NCBI RefSeq assembly: GCF_026011735.1
Contig: NZ_BRVN01000001.1
Location: 1 to 64,000, forward strand
Length of the DNA stretch: 64,000 nucleotides
DNA from: Dietzia sp. NCCP-2495
Lineage (GTDB): Bacteria; Actinomycetota; Actinomycetes; Mycobacteriales; Mycobacteriaceae
Direction of reading: 5' to 3'
The translations under genes and the position numbers were made by a program. Below are positions 6,275 through 9,794 of this stretch, piece by piece; within the stretch, counting starts at the first letter, position 1, and each line of letters opens with the position of its first letter. The notes under the pieces were generated by a model, which was given only the letters and a program-made list of their open reading frames with translations, ran no database searches and was not told the DNA's origin.

Positions 6275-6664
6275 TCACGGCGTGGACGGCTTCGGAATGT
6301 TCTGTAGCCGGAGTTGGCCACGCGCGAGCACCTTGCCGTTGTCGGATTGGGTGATCACCACGTCCCACAGCTGTTGACTGCGGCCCTGGAACAACGCCTC
6401 TGCCACAATCTCGACCCGGCCGCCGGTTGTGGCACGAAGGAAATCGGTCCCGTTGTGCACGCCCACGGCGACTTGGCCGAGTTCAGCGACCGCGTGCCCG
6501 GCACCCGCGCCACCGGCGCTCTCGACCAAGCTCGCGTAGACACCACCGTGGATGGTTCCCCATTCCGTGTGGTGATCCGGTCCGAGTTCGGCGTGCGCGC
6601 GCAACGAGGTGGACGACACCTCATCGATCACAAATCCTGTGGCCTGTACGAAGTTGCTCTGCAT
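6275..6664 (-). CDS. PaaI-family hotdog thioesterase
   Basis: This 129-residue protein has the hotdog thioesterase signature W-G-x-IHGG-x4-L-x-E (IHGG at 38-41, then VYASLVESAG) and ends in the expected strand (GKVLARGQLRLQNI). It would hydrolyse acyl- or aryl-CoA thioesters in the cytoplasm as a homotetramer. The start is ATG 6664, with AAAGGA five bases upstream. The much longer open frame running in from 7048 overlaps the GyrI-like gene and is not real coding sequence. It is the last gene of the ABC-F / GyrI-like / thioesterase unit, 50 bases after its neighbour, followed by a terminator hairpin. Confidence 0.85.
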   Translation of the reverse strand: MQSNFVQATGFVIDEVSSTSLRAHAELGPDHHTEWGTIHGGVYASLVESAGGAGAGHAVAELGQVAVGVHNGTDFLRATTGGRVEIVAEALFQGRSQQLWDVVITQSDNGKVLARGQLRLQNIPKPSTP

Positions 6665-6714
6665 CACATTCCTTTGCTGGAAGTGGATTTCGGTCGCCGG
6701 TCGATTAGCCGAGT

Positions 6715-7365
6715 TCACGACGTCAGTGCCACGGGCTGTCGCAGGATCGTCTTGAGTTTCTCGGGTGCGGTCCTGCGCGGATCCGACAGGTAGATCTCGT
6801 GGTGATGACCGGTGGGCACGGCATCGAATCCGGGGATCACCTGCTCGTGCATGTGGGCGATCGTCGGGCCCTCGTCGTCGTAGGAGCCAACATGGAGTGT
6901 CTGAACCGCTGGACCTTCGACGACGGTGTCGAATCGTACGAGATCCGCGACGCCGGGGATCTTCGTCGACCCAACCGTGTCCAACGCAGACGCTGCCATG
7001 TCCGGGGTGATCCAGTCGGGCTGCCAGATCATCATGGTCCAGCTCCATGCGCTCTTGTTTCGGGCGGTGAACACGTGGAGATCGTCCGCGTACCAGAGGC
7101 CCTCGAGCGGACCGACCGTATGGACTCGTCCTAGCTGCGACCGCGCTGTCGACCGGATCGTATAGGCCGTTGTATACAAGGACTCGACGGCACTGCGATA
7201 GTCGTCTGAGACGTTCGGATCGCCGTGACCGTCAGCCATGAGGAAACGCATCTCGGGTACGTCCACCAGGTCGAACCTGCCTGCTCGTCCGCCGTACAGG
7301 TCTCGACGCTCCTTCTTGACGTCGTAGTTCGAGGTACGACTCGAGGTTGCTGGATCGTCCGACAT
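6715..7365 (-). CDS. GyrI-like small-molecule-binding protein
   Basis: This 216-residue protein resembles the stand-alone GyrI-like family. Family features include the N-terminal pattern (YDVKKERRDLYGGRAGRFDLVDVP), the stretch GPLEGLWYADD, and the C-terminal VQTLHVGSYDDEGPTIAHMHEQV and HHEIYLSDPRRTAPEKLKTILRQP. GyrI-like domains bind drugs and other small molecules; stand-alone members have been reported to bind or hydrolyse toxic compounds. It starts nine bases after the ABC-F stop, so it should be on the same message. Pairing a drug-binding fold with an antibiotic-type ABC-F protein supports a shared role in tolerance; that is inference. Confidence 0.75.
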   Translation of the reverse strand: MSDDPATSSRTSNYDVKKERRDLYGGRAGRFDLVDVPEMRFLMADGHGDPNVSDDYRSAVESLYTTAYTIRSTARSQLGRVHTVGPLEGLWYADDLHVFTARNKSAWSWTMMIWQPDWITPDMAASALDTVGSTKIPGVADLVRFDTVVEGPAVQTLHVGSYDDEGPTIAHMHEQVIPGFDAVPTGHHHEIYLSDPRRTAPEKLKTILRQPVALTS

Positions 7366-7374
7366 ATGCCGACT

Positions 7375-9000
7375 CTAGCGCTGTCCCGGGAGCGCGAGAG
7401 TAGGCCAATCGCTGAGATCGCGAAGTAACTGCCGGTCGTGTGTGGCCACTACGACAGCACACGACGCCGTGTTCAGAGCGGCTGTGAGGGCGTCGACCAG
7501 AGCGAACGACAGATGATTGGTCGGCTCGTCGAGGATCAGCAGATCCGGTTCCTCTGCGAGGCACAGCGCCATGTGGAGTCGACGCTGCTGGCCCTGGGAC
7601 AAACGCGACACGGCGGTACCCGCTGTATCGGACCCGAGTAGACCGGTTCTCGCCAGGCCGGGCGCGGAGGTGAGTCCGAGCTGGTCCACGTGATCGCGAT
7701 AAATCTCCACCGCGGTTCGGTGCGGGTCCCAGTCCGGCACCTCCTGGCCGAGGAGGGCCAGTCGGGCGTTCGGGTGCCGATTCACACGGCCCGAGTCGGG
7801 TTCGAGTTCACCGACCAGTACCGCCAGCAGGGTGGACTTCCCGGCGCCGTTCGGTCCGGTCAGCAGGACCCGGTCGCCGGTGTCGATCGATAGGGACACC
7901 GAGGCCGTGAGTCGGTCGCTGACCCGTGGCTGATGGCAGGTGAGCACGGTACGGCCGGTGGGTACCGACCAGTCCGGCCACTGAAACCTCGCGGGCGGCG
8001 GCGGAACGCTGATGTGGTGGCGCTCCAGTTCCTCGCGTCGCCGGTTGAACGTCTGCACGGTGCTGGCTGCCCTTGTCGCCCGTTCGTGCCGTCCGTGCCC
8101 CTTGGCGGGGCGCCAGGAATCGTGGAGTCGACCGCGTGCATCCTCGGCCGCGCGGCTGAGGCGTTCGTGCTCGCCCACCTGGGCGGTGTGGGCCTGCTCC
8201 CAGCGCAGGCGCTCTCTGTGTCGGCCGTCGACCCAGCCCTCGTAGCCGCCCCCGTAGAGGCGCGGCGTGCCGTCCTGGCTCGGATCCAGGTCCAGGAAGT
8301 GGGTGCATACATCGCGCAACAGCGCCCGGTCGTGGCTGGCCACGGCGAGCGCGCCGGGGTGCTCGCGCATCTTCTCCGTCAGGAAGGCCAGTCCGGACGC
8401 GTCGAGGTGGTTGGTGGGCTCGTCCAGCAGGAGTATGTCGTGTCGGGCGCCGAGGACGCAGGCCAGCCGGACCCGGTACCTCTGCCCTACCGAGAGCGAC
8501 GACAGCGGCCGTGCCCGGTCAGTGCAGGCCGAGAGGGCCTCGAGCGCCATGTCCACGCGGCGCTCGGCGTCCCACGCGTCCAGCGTGATCGCGCGGTCCA
8601 GCGCGGACGTGTAGGCGTCGTCGGCTCCGGGCCGTTCTTCGGCCATGGCGATGGTGGCCTCGTTCAACGCCTGTAGAGCGTCGAGACTGTCGGAGATCTC
8701 CAGAGCCACGGCGTCACCGACGGTCCGGCCCTCGGCGATGTCGAGATCCTGTTCGACGGTGCCGATGGTCCCACGACGTGTGATTGTGCCGTCGTCGGGG
8801 CGCCGGCTTCCGGCAAGGACCTCGAGCAGCGTGGTCTTGCCGCGTCCGTTCTCCCCCACCACCGCCACTGCGGTGCCGGCGGACAGGGTCACGTCGACCC
8901 CGGAGAGGACTCGGCGGCTCCCGAGGGTGACCGAGGCGCCGGACAGGCGGATTTGGGCGTGGGAGCCCGCGGGGAGATGGTCGTGTGATGTGTCAGGCAT
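7375..9000 (-). CDS. ABC-F ribosome-associated ATPase (antibiotic-resistance type)
   Basis: This 541-residue protein has two ABC domains in one chain and no membrane segments. Walker A1 is GENGRGKTT (49-57), signature LSVGQ (169-173), Walker B with LDEPTNHLD (192-200). Walker A2 is GPNGAGKST (382-390), signature LSQGQ (467-471) and LDEPTNHLS (490-498). The linker at about 270-340 is basic ([17 protein letters not shown]), as in ABC-F proteins that reach into the ribosomal E site and displace antibiotics or rescue stalled ribosomes. A compact size and short termini fit the resistance-type (ARE) proteins better than the housekeeping EttA type. The leader upstream looks like a drug-sensing attenuator. 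The drug class cannot be read from sequence. Confidence 0.88.
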
Positions 9001-9010
9001 GGCATGGTGC

Positions 9011-9087
9011 TCTCTGCAATGTGTGTCGCGGAGCCGGACAGCACAAATTCGCCGTCCGGCTGATGGGCCGTCGACGGCGTGCAGAGA
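9011..9087 (-). promoter_or_regulatory. Nested stem-loops covering the ABC-F ribosome-binding region
   Basis: Two perfect eight-base inverted repeats are nested: an outer stem (9011-9018 with 9080-9087, TCTCTGCA/TGCAGAGA) and an inner stem (9032-9039 with 9054-9061, AGCCGGAC/GTCCGGCT). A 12-base palindrome, GCCGTCGACGGC, lies at 9067-9078. In the minus-strand RNA, the 3' arm of the outer stem is the purine stretch GCAGAGAG, which ends about nine bases before the ABC-F ATG and is the only Shine-Dalgarno-like sequence there. Closing the stem would hide it. Confidence 0.6.
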
Positions 9088-9110
9088 TCAGGGGTGAAGC
9101 GTGGACCCTG

Positions 9111-9126
9111 CCGCCGTCAGCGGCGG
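9111..9126 (-). promoter_or_regulatory. Hairpin around the leader-peptide stop codon
   Basis: CCGCCG (9111-9116) pairs with CGGCGG (9121-9126) across the four-base loop TCAG. The TGA of the 14-codon leader ORF lies in this loop (9117-9119), so a ribosome stalled on the leader would control whether the hairpin forms. Confidence 0.55.
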
Positions 9127-9161
9127 GACCAAGGCTTCAGAGAGTACGCACCGGGATACAT
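9117..9161 (-). CDS. Leader peptide of the ABC-F gene (14 residues)
   Basis: ATG 9161 to TGA 9117 encodes MYPGAYSLKPWSRR. The ATG lies seven bases after a predicted -10, so the message may begin at or next to the start codon (leaderless). The stop codon is in the loop of a GC hairpin, followed by nested stem-loops that cover the ABC-F ribosome-binding region. Short leader ORFs of this size, whose translation stalls with antibiotic and refolds the RNA, are known ahead of erm and ABC-F resistance genes. This one was inferred only from its position and structure, and its sequence matches no leader that I know. Confidence 0.55.
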   Translation of the reverse strand: MYPGAYSLKPWSRR

Positions 9162-9168
9162 GGCGGCG

Positions 9169-9198
9169 ACTGTACTTCAACCGGTGTGGTCATGTCCA
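9169..9198 (-). promoter_or_regulatory. Predicted promoter of the ABC-F leader transcript
   Basis: On the minus strand TGGACA (9198-9193), an 18-base spacer and TACAGT (9174-9169) form a sigma-70-like promoter within the last codons of the PPOX gene. Initiation seven or eight bases downstream falls at the A of the leader ATG. Confidence 0.5.
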
Positions 9199-9794
9199 CG
9201 GAGGTCGTCGATCTGTGCCTGCAATTGCTCGATGTCGCGCCGGTACAGGCCGGTCAGCTCGTTGACGTACTCCCTTGTCCATCGCGGAGTGATGTGCTTG
9301 CTGCAGTTGGCGTCCGAGGCGACGAGTTCCACGACGATCGCCCTTTCCACGTGACCGGTGTAGGTCTTCTCCCCCATCGTGCGCAGTCGCTCGATCAGTG
9401 CGGGGTCCCGGTCCGGTTCGACGATCCGTGCGTTGCCGAACACTTTGAGGCGACTGCGCGTGGGGTAGTCCACGAAGAACAGGCAGACCCGCCCGTCTGA
9501 ATCGATGTCGCCGGTGGATACGTATTGCCGGTTGCCGCGGAACTCCACCCACGACAGGGTGGTGTCACCGTCCACGTGGACGAATCCCGCGGGTCCGCCG
9601 CGGTGCTGGACGTACGGCCATCCGGATTCGGTGACGGTGGACAGGAAGAAGTGGTCCGCTCGCCTGATCAGGGCTTTGTCAGTGCCCTCGAGGCCGAAGT
9701 CGCCGGTGGCGTGCGGCTGGGTGTGCCCCACGGCCGCCTGGCGCGCGCGGGCGGAGGGGCCGAACGCGATCTCGGGGTAACGATTGGCCGCCAT
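9177..9794 (-). CDS. Pyridoxamine 5'-phosphate oxidase-family protein (flavin-binding)
   Basis: This 205-residue protein is a PPOX-type split-barrel. It has the family N-terminus (NRYPEIAFGPSARARQ), then ADHFFLSTVTESGWPYVQHRGG, SWVEFRGNRQYVSTGDI and DYPTRSRLKVFGNARIVE, all typical of FMN/F420-binding barrel strands. A C-terminal helix (REYVNELTGLYRRDIEQLQAQIDDL) is expected for this subfamily. The start is ATG 9794, as a longer frame to 9836 adds residues unlike the family. It lies just upstream of the ABC-F leader; some read-through into the attenuator is possible. The substrate is unknown. Confidence 0.82.
   Translation of the reverse strand: MAANRYPEIAFGPSARARQAAVGHTQPHATGDFGLEGTDKALIRRADHFFLSTVTESGWPYVQHRGGPAGFVHVDGDTTLSWVEFRGNRQYVSTGDIDSDGRVCLFFVDYPTRSRLKVFGNARIVEPDRDPALIERLRTMGEKTYTGHVERAIVVELVASDANCSKHITPRWTREYVNELTGLYRRDIEQLQAQIDDLRGHDHTG

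Follow-up and report, generated by a model that had tools for sequence, protein, structure and literature searches.

A putative macrolide-sensing attenuator with a probably leaderless leader upstream of an ABC-F gene in Dietzia

Drug-inducible attenuators have been described upstream of both erm and ABC-F genes. The leaders MefAL (MTASMRLR) and ErmDL (MTHSMRLRFPTLNQ) are of the +X+ type (Arg/Lys-X-Arg/Lys), with MefAL acting in transcriptional attenuation of the mefA/msrD operon, and a macrolide-induced attenuator controls the ABC-F gene msrD through stalling at termination of the six-codon leader MsrDL (MYLIFM), with an intrinsic terminator (PMC10314930). Among actinobacterial ABC-F genes, the Streptomyces lmrC, tiaA and are5sc genes are described as subject to ribosome-mediated attenuation (PMC12421871; PMC8546547). 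Drugs of the lincosamide, streptogramin A and pleuromutilin classes elicit a response of lmrC and cause stalling at the start codon of the are5sc and tiaA leaders (MLV and MVGDDDISG), which have ribosome binding sites. A macrolide-induced ABC-F gene is also described for Mycobacterium abscessus (PMC8373217). Here we analyze a 64,000-nucleotide (nt) stretch of Dietzia sp. NCCP-2495 (contig NZ_BRVN01000001.1, positions 1 to 64,000; hereafter the window), in which a reading of the sequence, the original prediction, had placed a complete ribosome-mediated attenuator on the minus strand upstream of an ABC-F gene.

We consider it probable (about 75%) that this locus carries a macrolide-sensing attenuator, mediated by the ribosome and acting mainly on translation; we infer a macrolide as the inducing drug as well as the level of control. 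By analogy, the system works like the known drug-inducible erm and ABC-F attenuators. What would set it apart is a probably leaderless leader, a pairing element (element 0) at the stop codon of the leader, a KP(W) triplet in the peptide, and the sharing of this build among gene classes. With MefAL and ErmDL, which precede macrolide-resistance genes, sister leaders of the window's (MYRGMASMRLRTRR and MHTGVASMRLRIRR) share a +X+ motif (RLR); unlike these two systems, the window cassette has the predicted leaderless start and element 0, and KPW, RPW or KLW stands in place of RLR in the window leader and in 22 more of the aligned leaders. Compared with MsrDL, the window leader is longer and would use an internal triplet, and no terminator was found. 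No description of the cassette was found in the open-access literature, in which the search for natural XP(W) leaders was not exhaustive.

The leader peptide, its start and its distribution

The promoter TGGACA-18-TACAGT (–35 hexamer at 9193..9198, –10 hexamer at 9169..9174, minus strand) is the only one found between positions 8900 and 9300 (shuffled sequences, mean 0.0, s.d. 0.1). It is followed by an open reading frame (ORF) encoding MYPGAYSLKPWSRR and ending in TGA (9117..9161, minus strand; ATG at 9161, TGA at 9119-9117). Because the promoter ends 7 nt upstream of this ATG, the leader is expected to be leaderless, with a transcript start probably at about 9161. We surveyed the –10 spacing in 39 distinct instances of the element pattern given below, which include one chance match (L067). 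Among the 33 with a codon-14 start, TANNNT lies 6-8 nt upstream of the start in 29 (6 nt in 5, 7 nt in 22 and 8 nt in 2); the remaining four have other spacings within 0 to 29, and two of them belong to leaders in which a further ATG, one codon earlier, has a spacing of 7. The same 6-8 nt distance was seen by eye before the chosen start of all 12 leaders that precede genes other than ABC-F.

For comparison of the peptides we used an alignment (A1) of 33 rows, comprising the 36 loci that bear CGNTGACGGCGG minus the near-copies L015, L035 and L019. The rows were picked by this stop-codon motif, so that its invariance in A1 is by construction, whereas no selection was made on the peptide triplet or on elements 1 and 2. 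Codon 1 of the 14-codon register is ATG or GTG in 30 of the 33 rows, and L024, L045 and L060 have their start codon elsewhere in frame. The conserved part of the leader is a distal triplet at codons 9-11 (Lys-Pro-Trp at 9129..9137, minus strand, in the window), and codons 2-8 vary. The triplet is KPW in 20 rows, KVR in 5, RLR in 3, KLR in 2, KLW in 2 and RPW in 1. Inverse toeprinting with erythromycin is reported to yield the arrest classes +X(+), XP(X), +X(W) and XP(W), the last in agreement with in vivo data (PMC6238534), and the erythromycin-dependent classes are repeated in a review (PMC13410324); for XP(W) and +X(W), the accounts are of random libraries and a test construct. All six triplets fall in +X(+), +X(W) or XP(W), with KPW fitting both of the latter, such that every one of the 33 rows has an erythromycin arrest motif at a fixed position in the leader. 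The stricter +X+ definition covers only 10 rows and does not include the window. On the tree of ABC-F proteins, KPW requires six changes, five of which are forced by well-supported branches; the leaders would therefore have swapped motifs repeatedly while staying inside the arrest set.

The closest named match to the ABC-F protein is from D. aerolata (73% identical). The gene is present in 10 of 23 genomes of the genus, one of which (G001) contains the same contig as the window. One copy is cut by a contig end, and the leader cassette lies upstream in all nine genomes with complete upstream DNA. Widening the search to the order gave an ABC-F match at E 1e-110 or better in 56 of 397 genomes; loci were examined for 30 of these and the remaining 26 were scanned by pattern only. 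The exact element pattern CGCTGACGGCGG-GCCGTY-GCCGGRYGGY occurs in 22 of the 397 genomes, compared with none for the reversed control, and an ABC-F frame adjoins in all 22 (21 are ABC-F matches and one, in G408, is a shorter ABC-F-like frame). With this recurrence, the layout is more than a chance arrangement. A class-level scan matched 3 of 394 genomes: the window, another ABC-F locus (L065) and L067 (in G435), the last taken as chance.

Pooling all sources, 53 ABC-F loci were examined. CGNTGACGGCGG ends a short upstream ORF in 36, the cassette in L050 and L052 was recognized solely by the RNA model, and other leaders are present at 13 (L055, L051, L054, L056, L058, L059, L061, L064 and L029-L033); L022 and L034 are cut or broken. 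Twelve plasmid loci were fetched from 21 matching records, with six carrying the cassette (on Micrococcus, Streptomyces and Prescottella (Rhodococcus) equi records), five other leaders and one broken. In a tree of 38 ABC-F proteins, a branch with 100/100 support splits the 33 cassette rows from 5 of the 13 other-leader loci. The short leaders at those 13 loci, which fall outside the clade, are of a different type, and examples such as MHLYFL, MQQLLFL and MALPYFI resemble MsrDL. At L082, an ABC-F-like frame of 395 amino acids has kept the attenuator and seems to have lost a middle stretch. By eye, the DNA 5´ of the cassette at the same-genus loci L019, L020 and L021 is unlike the PPOX-type gene found there in the window, and cassette and ABC-F gene remain together.

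Alternative pairings and the proposed switch

Rereading of the sequence placed the promoter, the 14-codon ORF, the GC hairpin at its stop codon and the downstream stems where the original prediction had them. The leader TGA lies within the CTGA loop of hairpin A (CCGCCG-CTGA-CGGCGG, 9111..9126, minus strand, as are all elements below; arms 9126-9121 and 9116-9111). Element 0, GACGGCGGC extended by AGGG (9106..9118), overlaps the stop codon and can pair with element 1, CGCCGTC (9073..9079); the invariance of element 0 in the alignment is partly due to selection. Further downstream are element 2, AGCCGGACGGC (9051..9061), element 3, GCTGTCCGGCT (9032..9042), and the Shine-Dalgarno (SD)-like sequence TGCAGAGAG (9010..9018), 9 nt ahead of the ABC-F ATG. 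Folding of the window also indicated an anti-SD arm, element X (TCTCTGCA, 9080..9087). As read from the sequence, both predicted eight-base stems are present, the outer formed by TCTCTGCA and TGCAGAGA (9087-9080 with 9018-9011) and the inner by AGCCGGAC and GTCCGGCT (9061-9054 with 9039-9032), and the inner can be extended to 11 pairs including one G-U (9061-9051 with 9042-9032). The fold of the leader RNA (9161-8970) beats 200 of 200 dinucleotide shuffles (z –3.8).

Applied to the 33 rows, RNAalifold returned 0:1 (the sequence directly 3´ of the stop codon with GCCGTC) together with 2:3. In A1, 0:1 is paired in 100% of cells and 2:3 in 97.9% (98.8% combined), compared with 31-56% for slid controls, and the alternative 1:2 is likewise paired in 100% of cells (slid controls 27-77%). 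Pairing 1:2 shares one strand with 0:1 and the other with 2:3 and is exclusive with each, and elements 1 and 2 would be near-invariant because each joins two exclusive pairings. A second alignment (A2) of 35 rows gave 98.6% for 0:1 and 2:3 and 92.4% for hairpin A with 1:2 and 3:4; its rows had been selected for CCGGCTC and for the pattern that elements 0, 1 and 2 form, making these percentages partly a matter of construction, and the pairing was therefore recounted on A1. The stop hairpin itself has six pairs in 17 of 35 relatives, five in 6 and four in 12.

We also asked whether each 0:1 arm pairs better with its own partner than with foreign ones, using sets hand-picked against near-copies. 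Own arms were favored in the 12 non-ABC-F leaders (–21.1 vs –18.5 kcal/mol, p = 0.001) as well as in the ABC-F leaders (24 representatives, –19.9 vs –19.0 kcal/mol, p = 0.014; all 33, p = 0.003).

In the mechanism that we propose, transcription would begin with the A of the leader ATG or with a neighboring nucleotide, as the –10 spacing suggests. Without drug, the leader would be read through, with the ribosome on the stop codon and afterwards hairpin A occupying element 0; element 1 would then go to element 2 and, in the window's clade, X to the SD, shutting the ABC-F start. With an erythromycin-type drug, the ribosome would stall with its P site on Pro10 and its A site on Trp11. Its front edge would then lie at the stop codon, thereby covering hairpin A on its 5´ arm and freeing element 0. 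While RNA polymerase advances, 0 would pair with 1 (in the window with the adjoining X too) and 2 with 3, leaving the SD unpaired, and the ABC-F protein made in this way would protect the ribosomes.

The switching between pairings was modeled by sequential folding, in which the RNA beyond the ribosome was folded as it is synthesized for three states: free, stalled and with a ribosome on the stop codon. For stalling with codon 10 in the P site, the ribosome front was set at nt 44, within the stop codon. In this model, 0:1 exceeds a probability of 0.5 in 33 of 33 rows when stalled at codon 10, in 17 when free and in none with the ribosome on the stop. Reciprocally, once element 2 is made, 1:2 exceeds 0.5 in all 33 rows with the ribosome on the stop, in 25 when free and in 17 when stalled. 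In the window, the 0:1 hairpin also absorbs the anti-SD arm (GGCAGGG with CUCUGC). As soon as the SD has been synthesized, its predicted opening in the window is 0.76 in the stalled state and 0.00 in both others; the 33-row means are 0.47 stalled, 0.26 free and 0.23 on the stop. The claim that stalling shifts pairing downstream thus has the support of the model, although the helix responsible, 0:1, had not been named. The inner stem (2:3) is not simply an off stem, since it also belongs to the switched-on state.

Several observations weigh against the proposed switch. Equilibrium folding of a transcript longer by 26 nt of coding RNA leaves the window SD shut (0.02) despite a stalled ribosome, and the 33-row means are 0.35 stalled vs 0.25 free. 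Exposure of the ABC-F start by stalling, as originally predicted, was therefore seen in the model only for the SD just made. Because the SD shuts at equilibrium in the longest window transcript, only a kinetic switch would work, and the modeling supports the mechanism in that form and not as an equilibrium switch. Covariation is thin, with two-sided change in 0:1 and 2:3 amounting to one pair in three cells; 1:2 and the other off-state helices have no covariation beyond shuffles in A1 or A2, and 1:2 is without any two-sided change. The family's 3:4 hairpin is missing from the window, which lacks element 4. In the own-versus-foreign test, the own 0:1 arm is the single best in only one of the 12 non-ABC-F rows (ranks 1-8), and kinship, not fully removed, could add to the effect. 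The same test detected no own-arm preference for the X:SD stem (p = 0.61; 24 representatives, p = 0.70), and a family-wide anti-SD:SD pairing was consequently dropped. The outer stem of the window is identical in L001 and L014 and differs by one pair in L009; other relatives have different or weaker anti-SD matches, that of L017 having eight pairs. Both nested stems exist in the window, and the inner is conserved in relatives. KPW leaders also may sense fewer drugs, for example ignoring ketolides, since changing Arg8 of ErmDL to Trp is reported to relieve telithromycin stalling (PMC8298421). Finally, the erm(46) leader and the leaders of two efflux genes discussed below lack an arrest triplet of this kind. 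Of the two checks in relatives that the original prediction had named, compensatory changes are few, but conservation holds for the leader peptide, the –10 spacing and the inner stem, and the arrest motif is at one place in 33 rows, which supports the original interpretation in large part. The observation behind it is confirmed.

Competing explanations

ABC-F attenuators are often transcriptional, lmrC and are5sc being described examples (PMC8546547; PMC12421871), and an alternative hairpin, most likely the 1:2 helix that the model forms in all 33 rows with the ribosome on the stop, might act as a terminator that stalling prevents. We regard this as unlikely, though it deserves to be kept in mind: no terminator-like site was found between 8900 and 9300 (shuffles 0.1), where a GC hairpin followed by a T run is absent, and inspection of the 33-row alignment by eye revealed no conserved T run after elements 2 or 3 or the SD. 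Translational control is favored because an intrinsic terminator was not seen. It is less likely still that the leaderless start senses initiation-blocking drugs (lincosamide, streptogramin A or pleuromutilin) rather than macrolides. In Streptomyces, start-codon stalling on the are5sc and tiaA leaders is reported for such drugs and not for erythromycin (PMC12421871). What is conserved in the leader is its distal part and not codons 2-8, and placing the masked ribosome on the start codon leaves 0:1 no higher (mean 0.30, compared with 0.33 free and 0.63 with a ribosome at codon 10).

Conservation through shared ancestry alone, with no switch, would account for a core so nearly invariant that little covariation is left. 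We think this very unlikely, given that the cassette-bearing ABC-F proteins are 53-82% identical to that of the window, yet have variable spacers around nearly fixed elements upstream of their genes, that own 0:1 arms outpair foreign ones, and that related cassettes lie upstream of other gene families. Amino-acid attenuation through the Trp codon, which 23 of 33 leaders have in their triplet, can be given almost no weight, as the other 10 leaders have Arg at that position and the downstream genes identified encode ABC-F, Erm or major facilitator superfamily (MFS) proteins, none of them in Trp metabolism. The Trp attenuator, the start-codon sensor and the intrinsic terminator were accordingly set aside in favor of the macrolide-sensing attenuator.

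Leaders of other resistance genes and neighboring features

A covariance model of the leader RNA, whose E-values are rough, has a match at E 0.01 in 88 of 387 genomes of the order. Among its matches, on plasmids of R. equi, is the leader of erm(46) (E 5e-5 and 2e-4, a range shared by chance matches). Of 20 second-tier places fetched, 14 precede Erm genes, two precede MFS genes (L120 and L130), one (L131), where no leader is clear, lies upstream of a 200-amino-acid frame that matches no NCBIfam model, and three (L132, L134 and L136), inside unrelated frames, were taken as chance. All seven Erm genes tested are above the NF000499 cut-off, the other seven being judged by their HE[LH]GQNFL start; the two MFS genes score best with the LmrA model but do not reach its cut-off.

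Attenuators of the same build were noted upstream of Erm46-like 23S rRNA methyltransferase genes at L119, L121, L122, L125, L128, L133, L135, L137 and L138. Like the ABC-F leaders, those of the Erm46-like genes, for example MLVLGTASLRLRSR, have a –10 box 6-8 nt from the start; they differ in being more divergent in sequence and mostly of the +X+ type. Among nine distinct Erm leaders, the triplet is RLR in 4, RIR in 1, RPR in 2, KPW in 1 and RPL in 1 (the last XP(X) only), KPW being that of MCAIAVSKPWGE at L133. Actinobacterial erm leaders also include an ErmX-type leader, for which the literature search gave nothing relevant. The similar leaders upstream of the LmrA-like MFS exporters at L120 and L130 (MSGASAAATAAVTRTHRL and MSGASASAACAAVTRTSR) have no +X+ or XPW triplet. 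On an R. equi plasmid (L027, 4204-4327), the stop codon of the erm(46) leader VGNTNIAVTEFRRF lies within a GC hairpin, and the 2:3 stem is much like the one in the ABC-F leaders. Genes at L027 are arranged in an order that fits the description of TnRErm46 in PMC6794481, the main text of which has zero occurrences of "leader" or "attenuat".

Tentatively, and with less than even confidence, we suggest a family of leaderless attenuators in Dietzia and its order that serves ABC-F, Erm and LmrA-like efflux genes, is borne in part on mobile elements and makes natural use of XP(W) and +X(W) motifs, with repeated swaps between +X+ and KPW tuning macrolide and ketolide sensing. If the attenuator reading is right, drug-inducible resistance could be read from sequence across a large bacterial group, including both resistance genes of the apparent TnRErm46 element of R. 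equi. Natural KP(W) leaders, and natural pairs of KPW and RLR leaders, would be available to ask how a leader sets drug specificity, and leaderless translation is suggested as the sensor input of an attenuator.

The ABC-F gene itself (7375..9000, minus strand, ATG at 9000) encodes 541 amino acids. Its best NCBIfam models are NF000171 (TlrC/CarA/OleB/SrmB; 314 bits vs a cut-off of 800) and NF000355 (ribosomal protection-like; 318 vs 380), both below cut-off, and ribosome protection is its presumed function. An Rfam search of 8960-9230 returned no family match up to E 1, the leaders of six relatives had no Rfam match at gathering thresholds, and the viral-contig scan gave no match. On the 3´ side of the ABC-F gene, two small genes lie close by on the minus strand (6275-7365), perhaps on one transcript: that at 6715-7365 has no NCBIfam match and that at 6275-7048 encodes a hotdog thioesterase.

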